A stretch of DNA of 34,131 nt from an uncultured Clostridia bacterium. Its GTDB lineage: Bacteria > Bacillota > Clostridia > TANB77 > CAG-508. The notes below the pieces were generated by a model that had not been told where the DNA came from, did not search any database, and saw nothing but the letters and a program-made list of their open reading frames with translations. Made by a program: the position numbers and the translations under genes. Positions 5,704-9,526 of this stretch are shown piece by piece. Every line of letters begins with the position of its first letter. The stretch's first letter is position 1. The stretch lies in assembly GCA_904420285.1 (NCBI GenBank), contig CAJFUM010000125.1, positions 1-34,131 of the forward strand. The letters run 5' to 3'.

Positions 5704-5725
5704 CCCGCGTTTTGCGGGTTTTTTT
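5704..5725 (+). terminator. Rho-independent terminator
   Basis: CCCGC-GTTTT-GCGGG (5704-5718) followed by seven T. It overlaps by two bases the stop codon of the collagen-like 3' part on the other strand. Confidence 0.8.
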
Positions 5726-6197
5726 ATGCCAATTTCACTACCCACAGCGATGTGTTAGAAAAGGTTTCGTTATCACTGTCGCCCCACAATGTCACCACTT
5801 GGCCTGCTGTTGCAGTAATGATCGCACCGCTAGCTAGATGCACCAAATTGGTGGTTGCTACCACCTGTCCGCTGGCTTTGGTGCCCTCGATCTGGGTGCC
5901 ATCAAGCCGCAGCTCACAGCTTACCGGTGTAGCTGAACTATTGGCATCTGTTACATCCGTGGAATAAAATAGCTGATACGTCCCTGCCGTATTCAGTGTT
6001 ACCTCGGCTGCGCTAGCCGTATGAGCAATATCCGAACCGGCTTGGAGGGCATTGGTGGCAAAAGTTAGGGCACTACCACCGGAAGACGGTGTTTGATCCC
6101 CCGTATTGACTGCATATAATGCACTTAACGGAGGAGCTGTCCCCGTATCCCCTTTGGGGCCTTGCGCCCCGGTGGGTCCAGTGGCCCCTGTTGCACC
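5724..6197 (-). CDS. 3' part of a split collagen-like spore-surface gene (C-terminal globular domain)
   Basis: This part has no start codon and begins inside collagen repeats: GATGATGPTGAQGPKGDTGT, followed by about 135 residues of a BclA-like C-terminal beta-sandwich domain, with NALQAGSDIAHTASAAEVTL, TYQLFYSTDVTDANSSATPV and the end TSLWVVKLA. Such domains (TNF/C1q-like fold) form trimers at the tip of exosporium filaments. The 5' part of the gene lies 2.7 kb upstream on the same strand (8894-9526). Both parts meet the intervening segment at the same word GGTGCAAC in the same codon phase, so precise removal of 2,732 bp gives one open frame of 356 codons. In the present arrangement this part would hardly be translated: the frame is closed upstream within the recombinase gene, apart from possible low-level internal starts. 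Confidence 0.85.
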   Translation of the reverse strand, partial: GATGATGPTGAQGPKGDTGTAPPLSALYAVNTGDQTPSSGGSALTFATNALQAGSDIAHTASAAEVTLNTAGTYQLFYSTDVTDANSSATPVSCELRLDGTQIEGTKASGQVVATTNLVHLASGAIITATAGQVVTLWGDSDNETFSNTSLWVVKLA

Positions 6198-6211
6198 AGT
6201 CGGGATAACCG
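6190..6211 (-). promoter_or_regulatory. Attachment site at the recombinase end of the element
   Basis: On the minus strand: recombinase TGA, then CGGTTATCCC (6211-6202), GACT, then the core GGTGCAAC (6197-6190), then collagen repeats. The half with the inverted-repeat arm is element DNA, the other half is host gene. Confidence 0.7.
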
Positions 6212-7780: not shown

Positions 7781-8839
7781 TTATGCACGGCCCAAAAAAG
7801 CTATGCCTTCTAATTGCCGCAGTGCCTCCTGCCGGTAAACACGAAAGGCAGATGGCAACGGATATTCCTTTTGTAGTTGCTGTGCGCTTACCCAAGTGAA
7901 GCTTGGCAGCTTATGGGGTACGATTCCCCCATACCCTGTCATATGCCATTCGATATGGGTAAAAATATGCTTGGCCTGGGGCAGCCGATAGACCGTTGTT
8001 CCTTCATACCCAAGCGATGTCAGTGCCTCTGCCACATCCGTCCCCTCCTGTTGCGGAAACTCCCAAAGCCCCGCCAACAATCCCTTATCAGGCCGCTTGC
8101 ACAGGGCAACTTGATCTCCGCAAAACAACAAAAATACCATCCGTTCCTCTTGACGCCGGGGTTTTTTTGCCCCTTTGACGGGATAATGCAGCATATTGCC
8201 CTGCCGCCTTGCTTCACATAGCATCTCCAATGGGCATTGGCTGCACAATGGCGTCCCATTGGGTAAACAAATAATGGCGCCAAGCTCCATCAAGGATTGA
8301 TTAAACGCCCCTGTCATGGGATGCGGTAAAATTGCCGCCACTTGAGAGGTAATCTCCTTTTTTACCGCTTCTTTCGTAATATCCGCCCCATTGGCCGTTA
8401 AGCGGGTAATCACCCGCAGCACATTTCCATCCACTGCCGGCACCGGCAGCCCAAAAGCAATCGATGCCACTGCTCCCGCCGTGTAAGGGCCTATGCCTGG
8501 CAAAGACAAAAGCGCCTGATAATCGGCTGGAAACCGTCCATCATAACGTGCCATTACCTCTTGGGCACATTTTTGCATATTACGTACCCGGTTATAATAC
8601 CCTAAGCCCTCCCACAGCTTGAGCAATATGTCCTGCGGCACCTCTGCTAAAGCCTTCACATCAGGCAGCGCTGTTAAAAACCGTTCAAAATATGGTTTTA
8701 CCGTCTCCACCCGTGTCTGTTGAAGCATAATCTCCGATACCCAAACCCGGTATGCCGTAGGCTCATCCCGCCAGGGTAAAAGCCGGGCGTTTTCACCAAA
8801 CCAATGTAATAAAGGTGTGACAATTTTTTCTAATTCCAT
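7781..8839 (-). CDS. mutY: A/G-specific adenine DNA glycosylase
   Basis: A 352-residue MutY, which removes adenine mispaired with 8-oxoguanine and so prevents G:C to T:A mutations. Visible parts: SEIMLQQTRVETV near residue 36 with the catalytic Glu, helix-hairpin-helix LPGIGPYTAGAVASIAFG with the following VDGNVLRV containing the catalytic Asp, iron-sulfur cluster CLPNGTPLCSQCPLEMLC, and a C-terminal NUDIX-like 8-oxoG recognition domain from about residue 225 (KRPDKGLLAGLWEFPQQEG). Full length and apparently intact. The ATG has AAAGGA upstream. It lies inside the intervening element between the two halves of a collagen-like gene, with no other passenger gene, which is an unusual place for mutY. 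Its promoter is not evident: the leader between the element end and the start is only about 70 bases, so it may be read from the collagen-gene promoter. Confidence 0.95.
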   Translation of the reverse strand: MELEKIVTPLLHWFGENARLLPWRDEPTAYRVWVSEIMLQQTRVETVKPYFERFLTALPDVKALAEVPQDILLKLWEGLGYYNRVRNMQKCAQEVMARYDGRFPADYQALLSLPGIGPYTAGAVASIAFGLPVPAVDGNVLRVITRLTANGADITKEAVKKEITSQVAAILPHPMTGAFNQSLMELGAIICLPNGTPLCSQCPLEMLCEARRQGNMLHYPVKGAKKPRRQEERMVFLLFCGDQVALCKRPDKGLLAGLWEFPQQEGTDVAEALTSLGYEGTTVYRLPQAKHIFTHIEWHMTGYGGIVPHKLPSFTWVSAQQLQKEYPLPSAFRVYRQEALRQLEGIAFLGRA

Positions 8840-8893
8840 GTGAAAAATCCTTTCTTCTTGCTGCTTTTATTTTACCGGGCCGGTCTGTTGCTG

Positions 8894-9526
8894 TCAATAT
8901 GGCCCTATGCCGGTTATCCCAGTTGCACCTACCGGGCCCACATTCCCCGTGGCCCCTGTGGCTCCTACCGGGCCTTCTGCTCCTGTAGCTCCTGTGGGAC
9001 CAGTGGGGCCCATGGGGCCTTCAGCACCGGTGGCTCCTGTCGCCCCGGTGGCTCCCGTAGCACCGGTGGCACCCATTGCTCCCGTAGCTCCCGTAGGGCC
9101 AACTGCAGTTACCAGAGAGAAGTCGGCAGAAGATCCTGGAATCCCGGTGGCGCCGTTCACATTGGCCCGATACAAACTGCCGCCATAATAAACAAACTGT
9201 CCGGCAGAATAAAATGCTGCAGGGTTGAATGGCACTGCTGTATCCAGTCCTGCTCCTGTGGCACCCGTAGCTCCCGTGGGGCCAGTGGGACCCGTTGGGC
9301 CAGTTGGGCCAGTGGCCCCCGGCAGGCCCGGAAGGCCCTGGGCACCTGCAGCTCCCGTAGGGCCGGCCGGACCGGCAGGCCCCATAGGGCCCATGGAACC
9401 GGTGGGCCCGGTGGGACCTGTTGGGCCTTGATACCACACCGCAGAAGGACAACAGTTGGACCCACAATTTGAGCCACAATTCGAGCCACAGCATCCGCCG
9501 CAGTTTCGATTCACATAATAATACAT
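8894..9526 (-). CDS. 5' part of a split collagen-like, Cys-rich spore-surface protein
   Basis: As it stands this encodes 210 residues. The N-terminus is Cys-rich (NCGGCCGSNCGSNCGSNCC), fitting disulfide or other anchoring to the spore surface. Collagen-type G-X-Y repeats, mostly GPT/GAT, follow (about residues 34-95), then a short non-collagen insert (PFNPAAFYSAGQFVYYGGSL) resembling a carbohydrate-binding module of chitinase type, then more G-X-Y repeats. The last eight residues, GITGIGPY, and the stop are encoded by the intervening element, beyond the core GGTGCAAC (8929-8922). ATG at 9526 is preferred because GGAG stands 8 bases upstream; a GTG at 9535 overlaps that site. It starts 5 bases after the glycosyltransferase stop codon, so the two form an operon, as is common for glycosylated exosporium proteins. 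Confidence 0.88.
   Translation of the reverse strand: MYYYVNRNCGGCCGSNCGSNCGSNCCPSAVWYQGPTGPTGPTGSMGPMGPAGPAGPTGAAGAQGLPGLPGATGPTGPTGPTGPTGATGATGAGLDTAVPFNPAAFYSAGQFVYYGGSLYRANVNGATGIPGSSADFSLVTAVGPTGATGAMGATGATGATGATGATGAEGPMGPTGPTGATGAEGPVGATGATGNVGPVGATGITGIGPY
8911..8929 (-). promoter_or_regulatory. Attachment site at the mutY end of the element
   Basis: On the minus strand: collagen repeats, core GGTGCAAC (8929-8922), T, then the arm GGGATAACCG (8920-8911), then element DNA leading to mutY. This arm is the exact inverse of the arm at the other end. Confidence 0.7.

Follow-up and report, generated by a model that had tools for sequence, protein, structure and literature searches.

The present study concerns a collagen-like gene, likely for a spore-surface protein, that is split by a small recombinase-bearing element in an uncultured Clostridia bacterium (GenBank assembly GCA_904420285.1, contig CAJFUM010000125.1); the whole 34,131-bp stretch of DNA analysed is called the window. 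The gene lies on the minus strand, as do the element and the glycosyltransferase gene in front of it (Table 1). The 5' part, which has a Pfam Collagen match, encodes a Cys-rich N-terminus, collagen repeats, a YYGGSLYRANVN module and further collagen repeats, and its frame continues past the crossover core into the element as far as a stop at 8894. The C-terminal domain of the 3' part scored 33.0 bits against BclA_C, for which the Pfam gathering score is 38, and the protein is therefore described here as collagen-like with a BclA_C-type C-terminal domain and is not filed as BclA.

An initial annotation had already described a collagen-like gene split by a recombinase element, and both halves were recovered with a gene between them that encodes the Resolvase (PF00239), Recombinase (PF07508) and Zn_ribbon_recom (PF13408) domains, all above cut-off. 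The serine S16 of its Y-x-R-L-S motif is invariant in four of four subfamily members. As to gene content, that annotation was right about the recombinase and overlooked a complete mutY, whose product combines an HhH-GPD glycosylase with a NUDIX-like C-terminal domain and matches an NCBIfam equivalog above the curated cut-off. The true start of the glycosyltransferase gene is probably near 10626 (minus strand), and this gene probably forms one operon with the collagen-like gene. The nearby sigK homologue, in addition to the match given in Table 1, scored 273.6 bits against TIGR02846, under the cut-off of 298.65.

Table 1. Features of the split collagen-like gene, the element within it and their neighbourhood (positions in the window).
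Feature	Position	Strand	Remarks
Glycosyltransferase-2/TPR gene	9532..10755	minus	directly upstream of collagen-like gene
Predicted sigma-K-type promoter of operon, AC-N16-CATANNNTG	10680..10706	minus	same motif, same place in L111 and L112
Collagen-like gene, 5' part	8924..9526	minus	ATG at 9526
attL crossover core AC	8922..8923	minus	core set by circle-junction sequence
attL inner inverted-repeat arm (GGGATAACCG)	8911..8920	minus
Predicted sigma-A promoter of mutY, TTGACA-N17-TAAAAT	8869..8897	minus	just inside attL
mutY (A/G-specific adenine glycosylase), 352 amino acids	7781..8839	minus	TIGR01084 310.9 bits, cut-off 286.5
Terminator-like hairpin with T run, between mutY and recombinase	7630..7700	minus	z -2.6
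Large serine recombinase gene, 460 amino acids	6212..7594	minus	stop codon abuts attR arm
attR inner inverted-repeat arm (CGGTTATCCC)	6202..6211	minus
attR crossover core AC, first two bases of Thr codon	6199..6200	minus	discriminated by L110 circle junction
Collagen-like gene, 3' part	5724..6198	minus	short collagen stretch and BclA_C-type C-terminal domain; stop 5724-5726
sigK homologue, intact, same neighbourhood, outside element	2832..3512	plus	NF004471 283.9 bits, cut-off 252

Crossover Core and Circle Junction

The position of the crossover was provided by a second contig, L110 (CAJFIN010000078.1, Candidatus Neoanaerotignum galli), whose alignment with the window spans 8,891 columns, free of mismatches and with a single 23-bp gap. 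L110 opens with the recombinase 3' end, to which the left end of the element is joined without a break, and this circle-type junction lies at 91-106 (CCCGACTGGGATAACC). The first 99 bases of L110 are repeated at 2724-2822, as when a contig has been cut out of a circle. The element ends of L110 share only five bases, presumably too short for an assembler overlap, so that reads carrying the junction probably existed. The junction is of the kind that a circle or a tandem copy would give, and it fixes the core at AC, within the ACTGG shared by both element ends, and the length between the cores at 2,723 bp.

The initial annotation had instead taken as core GGTGCAAC, a Gly-Ala-Thr codon repeat that is present at both ends in the same phase by repetition. 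This candidate was rejected, since it would leave nine extra bases at the L110 junction, which fits ACTGG/AC only. The element is accordingly 2,723 bp long rather than 2,732 bp, and the frame rejoined at the AC cores has 1,080 bp (359 amino acids plus stop) rather than 1,071 bp; as had been predicted, it is open, with no internal stop. The perfect 10-bp inverted repeat formed by the two inner arms was confirmed, with a centre of 4 bases in the circle (CGGTTATCCC-GACT-GGGATAACCG) in place of the 13 proposed. With 24-base arms, 15 of 24 positions of the circle palindrome are complementary, a value that none of 20,000 random pairings attained; the inner 12-base arms pair at 10 of 12 positions (random share 0.00005).

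The Same Arrangement in Other Species

Genome contigs were searched with an alignment of four subfamily recombinases, giving 529 stretches with 462 relatives, of which the best 80 were kept. L110 headed the scan together with L111 and L112, uncultured Clostridia metagenome-assembled genomes (MAGs) of two other species. Both of these have the gene order of the window (glycosyltransferase, N-part, mutY, recombinase, C-part, DUF6198), with elements of 2,789 bp in L111 and 2,768 bp in L112. In all three species, the collagen halves flanking the recombinase are in phase, the core AC is common to both junctions, the predicted join is in frame without a stop (464 amino acids in L111 and 416 in L112) and the protein across it reads Gly-Ala-Thr-Gly. 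By the same 20,000 random pairings, the circle palindromes with 24-base arms reach 16/24 in L111 (random share 0.0001) and 17/24 in L112 (0.00005); with 12-base arms, they reach 6/12 (0.065) and 8/12 (0.0035).

Comparison of the window with L111 and L112 gave protein identities of about 50-72%, and the low identities between the window and L111 (mutY 67%, glycosyltransferase 54%, N-part 69%, recombinase 52%) indicate that the arrangement is old. The three split-gene genomes form one clade (support 100/99). The recombinase P0003 and the N-part P0130, each on a 3,501-bp contig that we infer to be the same one, are likely a fourth case of the split gene.

Evidence for a Single Gene under Selection

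The ratio of nonsynonymous to synonymous divergence (dN/dS) between L111 and L112 was 0.038 for the N-part and 0.043 for the C-terminal domain, which is 95.6% identical between them. The other values were 0.085 (mutY), 0.144 (recombinase), 0.067 (glycosyltransferase) and 0.082 (sigK). These values indicate purifying selection on both gene halves and on the recombinase. A half-gene that is never translated would not be kept in this way. The recombinase is the fastest-changing piece (64% identical, with the other compared genes at 88-96%), and its synonymous divergence of 1.98 is more than twice that of the others (0.46-0.92), suggesting that the recombinase may have been exchanged.

A protein search with the N-part gave 4,419 matches. 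Among the best 120, nine hold the C-terminal domain, and eight of these also hold the N-part module, including P0123, P0125, P0127 (148 member sequences) and P0129; the database for this comparison also held 120 recombinase relatives. The architecture thus exists in uninterrupted form in these eight proteins, none of which is a joined copy from this species.

In the host family (58 genomes), no direct empty site of this exact gene was found. The glycosyltransferase (E <= 1e-70) occurs in 25 of the 58 genomes, and when the three split-gene genomes are left out, it is adjoined by a collagen gene in 4 of 22. These four collagen genes are uninterrupted where no contig end cuts them and have other C-termini.

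A natural empty site is suggested by the genus of An100, in which 12 of 64 genomes contain the C-terminal domain (E <= 1e-20). In the stretches fetched, the gene is uninterrupted in four of them (G492, G466, G491 and G521), cut by a contig end in two, and represented by a start-less C-part in six (G455, G501, G503, G467, G500 and G520); a recombinase was recognised beside three of the six (G455, G467 and G500). In G467, the C-part lies behind the recombinase and a matching N-part lies on another contig; the predicted circle pairs at 18/24 positions. The predicted empty site of G467 (443 amino acids) aligns through the join, with no gap at that point, to the uninterrupted genes of G491 (428 amino acids, 84% identity) and G521 (416 amino acids, 82%) in alignments of about 1,000 columns, with collagen repeats around the join that vary in length and with the two halves taken from separate contigs. 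Judged by this alignment, comparison of relatives that have such an element with relatives of the same genus that lack it gives a matching empty site.

These data support the proposal of the initial annotation that a precisely removable element lies within one gene: the joins are in frame in three species, the L110 junction fits, both halves are under selection and eight relatives have the joined architecture. In the assemblies and proteins analysed, none of the three contrary results that it had named appeared, namely the same two separate genes in related strains lacking the recombinase, the absence of any excised or circular form, and a 3' part belonging to a more distant collagen-like paralog.

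A Wider Group of Related Recombinases

The best 80 genome loci contain 103 recombinase open reading frames (ORFs) whose 3' end lies inside the locus. Collagen repeats occur within 200 bp of the 3' end in 30 of the 103 (20 on the same strand, 10 on the opposite strand) and within 200 bp of the 5' end in none, and chance adjacency was rejected on this count. In 66 viral loci, none of 149 ORFs has collagen repeats nearby, and a phage origin was rejected on this basis. The 3' part in the window is not among the 30 because its collagen stretch is too short for the threshold. Taking the best recombinase per locus, collagen lies within 600 bp in 26 of 80, always at a distance of 3-168 bp. The loci with collagen near the recombinase 3' end include L114, L118, L119, L122, L123, L141, L146, L155, L166, L171, L180, L184, L187 and L188, several of which look like split collagen-like genes.

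In a search for junctions, the AC had to belong to a Thr codon, the collagen phase had to be confined to the outer sides, and the circle had to be palindromic. Such pairs were found in 16 of the 80 genome loci and in 0 of the 66 viral loci; at least 14 of 24 positions pair in ten of the genome loci, including L111 and L112, whereas 2.5% of 360 control sets reached this level. L163 is doubtful among these ten, its pairing probably being an artefact of the repeats. The arrangement is also clear in Flavonifractor sp. An100 (L171), Lachnoclostridium sp. An14 (L180) and bacterium 1XD21-70 (L155); a candidate L184 junction pairs at 13/24 at AC, and L123 and L188 gave no clear junction site. In L184:4117-4740 and L132:8668-9696, we also observed collagen-like segments that seemingly have no N-terminal part and carry an attL-like tail, as if the genes were in at least three pieces.

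In the recombinase tree, the collagen label falls on 27 of 81 rows (the window was labelled by hand). It is clustered yet needs 17 changes, compared with 22.7 in shuffles, of which 3 of 500 were as low, and one clade (support 93/94) carries it on 20 of 32 rows. Most of the related collagen-associated elements are larger and contain other genes. Apparently, the related recombinases form a wider group that has not been described so far.

Promoters, Directionality and mutY

The sigma-K consensus is AC-N16/17-CATANNNTA. The related form AC-N16-CATANNNT(A/G) occurs four times in the window and twice each in L111 and L112, and in each of the three one copy precedes the glycosyltransferase-collagen operon and another precedes sigK; all these sites end in TG, and G was allowed at this position only after the sites had been seen. 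Together with the Cys-rich collagen-like product, the motif suggests late expression in the mother cell.

The predicted promoter of mutY is of another type. The sigma-A consensus was used here, and TTGACA-N17-TANAAT occurs once per sequence, both strands considered, in the window, L111 and L112, each time just inside attL, so that mutY is probably expressed in growing cells. One mutY match per genome (E <= 1e-30) was found in 32 of the 58 family genomes, and in each of the three split-gene genomes this single match is the mutY of the element. In the 18 other genomes with both mutY and the glycosyltransferase, the two lie on different contigs (16 genomes) or more than 200 kb apart (2 genomes). 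The element appears to have captured the host mutY, which would now penalise loss of the element in the germ line.

Between mutY and the recombinase, terminator-like hairpins are also present in L111 (z -3.2) and L112 (z -2.2), along with frames of only 35-45 codons that have no Pfam match. Short frames ahead of the recombinase lie at 7651-7788 (minus) in the window, L111:9888-10007 and L112:9900-10007; in L111 and L112, the TGA of the short frame overlaps the recombinase ATG (ATGA), which suggests translational coupling. These frames found no backing as directionality factors, having no Pfam match and a similarity that is largely translated hairpin. No profile common to directionality factors was among those tested, and the gene for such a factor could be located elsewhere than in the element. 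In three of five tested collagen-associated elements, a DUF6870 protein is encoded ahead of the recombinase, directly upstream at L155:9568-9897, L119:8042-8380 and L122:6777-7073, and was not seen in the element of the window. These proteins are candidate directionality factors in the related elements.

Origin of the Window

The window is probably a stray contig in the bin of its MAG (G000), as suggested by the match to L110 and by two genes that have no proper counterpart in the genus of G000: the Lon gene has no match at E <= 1e-20 in 23 other genomes of that genus, and the glycosyltransferase has only weak partial matches there. Membership in the genus of G000 was rejected on these grounds, and the window probably comes from Ca. 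N. galli or something nearly identical. Elsewhere in the window, a large frame at 31165-33711 (plus), beside a short helix-turn-helix-like frame, resembles type I restriction-modification sequences.

Discussion

This study provides sequence evidence that the two halves of a collagen-like gene belong together and could be rejoined. We consider it likely that the recombinase-bearing element leaves as a circle and that the collagen halves are thereby rejoined in frame, most plausibly in the sporulating mother cell. The recombinase, which we infer to perform the excision, would recombine the two AC cores, the 2,723-bp element would leave as a circle and the two collagen-like halves would rejoin in frame. 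Excision would come late in sporulation, a timing suggested by the sigma-K-like motif of the operon and the nearby sigK; the mother cell as its site is suggested by the promoter motifs, the neighbouring sigK and the known parallels. Under its housekeeping-type promoter, the mutY of the element, to judge from the assemblies the only one in the cell, would keep the element in the germ line, as a vegetative cell that lost the element would become a mutator, while the doomed mother cell would pay nothing.

Several observations weigh against this interpretation. A tandem copy, rather than a free circle, could have given the junction in L110, and at L110:2806-2850, 23 bp of the collagen part just outside attR that are found in the window are absent, perhaps by an assembly error, which would shift the frame. 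The core was picked after inspection of the sequences, and the palindromes with 12-base arms are less striking (10, 6 and 8 of 12 in the window, L111 and L112). Our search with the C-terminal domain (485 candidates) gave no joined protein from this species and returned only the protein cluster P0241, which is still split, and the BclA_C match is under the Pfam gathering score. In the genus of An100, no recombinase was found in the fetched stretch beside the C-parts of G501, G503 and G520 (L360, L362 and L369), for which the element model offers no explanation. The strict sigma-K form with TA has no occurrence in the window, L111 or L112. A sigma-E/K promoter directly before the recombinase was rejected because its scores were weak; promoter scores upstream of the recombinase are weak at best, and a terminator-like hairpin lies there. 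No recombination directionality factor was recognised in the element, and a second mutY may have been missed in the three MAGs. Lastly, the recombinase, at 64% identity compared with 88-96% elsewhere, has diverged faster or was replaced.

A rival explanation is reversible phase variation, in which the element would leave and re-enter the chromosome in growing cells and switch a surface protein with no link to sporulation. Serine recombinases are able to catalyse both directions, a directionality factor was not recognised, and the circle-type junction comes from a gut metagenome assembly and not from a sporulating culture. However, a vegetative cell in the off state would lose the only mutY found, which the element carries under a sigma-A-type promoter, and the operon has its sigma-K-like motif in common with sigK. 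We regard phase variation as unlikely.

Still less probable, in our judgement, is a selfish mobile element that lands in Gly-Ala-Thr codon DNA and leaves the host only damage limitation. It would account for the many hosts in which related recombinases, with differing cargo, adjoin collagen repeats, for a recombinase less conserved than its neighbours, and for split and uninterrupted versions within one genus. It does not sit well with the same site, cargo and orientation in three species despite protein identities of about 50-72%, with a single-copy mutY, or with the strong selection on both halves.

The 3' part had been called start-less by the initial annotation, and this needs qualification, as the attR arm contains a GTG in frame, at which P0241 (9 member sequences) starts; no Shine-Dalgarno sequence was seen before this GTG. 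Two separate genes, one for a truncated collagen protein and the other for a C-terminal protein made on its own from the GTG, would nevertheless be very improbable, because eight of the best 120 collagen relatives hold the N module and the C domain in one protein and all three joins are in phase. A dead insertion that made the collagen-like gene a pseudogene, for which the interruption in this contig could be cited, is the least credible explanation given the purifying selection on both halves and the recombinase, the complete recombinase domains and the circle-type junction.

The preferred interpretation, excision of the element from the collagen-like gene, has parallels among the known recombinase-excised elements in sporulation genes. 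These are skin/sigK, SPbeta/spsM, vfbin/spoVFB, gin/gerE (28.6 kb, non-phage) and yin/yabG, and a recombination directionality factor is reported for several of them. One close parallel is gin (PMC5595907), which splits the sporulation gene gerE in Bacillus cereus ATCC10987. Like the present element, it is not a phage, encodes serine recombinases and has a short shared core, of 9 bp in this case; its cargo includes a recJ homologue, and the gene is restored in frame. It differs in its size of 28.6 kb with 31 genes, three recombinases and GirX, in its target, a 225-bp regulator gene, and in that excision has been demonstrated. SPbeta in spsM of Bacillus subtilis (PMC4191935, PMC5595907) is likewise recombinase-bearing, lies in a spore-surface-related gene and is removed during sporulation; unlike the present element, it is an active prophage with a recombinase and a separate directionality factor, and spsM is a polysaccharide synthesis gene, whereas the target here encodes a collagen-like structural protein. 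The skin element in sigK of B. subtilis and C. difficile (PMC5025042, PMC5595907) shares the use of a serine recombinase and restores a mother-cell gene, but it is prophage-like and splits sigK, which is intact here while the collagen-like gene is split. The yin element in yabG (PMC10747680), of which an integrated and a circular form were found, intervenes in a sporulation gene, but it is prophage-like, known from a single strain, and its target is not a structural surface gene. As far as titles and the beginnings of abstracts tell, the literature searches returned no description of a recombinase element in a collagen-like gene, and a word search of PMC8987985 gave none of five terms.

The sporulation-specific rearrangements found in the literature concern few genes, most of which are interrupted by large phage-like elements. 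In the present case, the split gene is a structural one, likely for a surface protein, and the element has only two genes; related recombinases adjoin collagen repeats in numerous Clostridia, some of them named strains. As a tentative generalisation, which may or may not hold, many gut Clostridia could keep collagen-like spore-surface genes in pieces, some of them in more than two, that a dedicated clade of recombinases splices at the AC of Thr codons in Gly-X-Thr repeats and that are joined only in the mother cell, with mutY held as a hostage in Neoanaerotignum. Strains such as Flavonifractor sp. An100 permit direct testing of this idea. If it is true, DNA splicing would be a common route to spore-surface genes, and a housekeeping repair gene would lock a removable element into the germ line.

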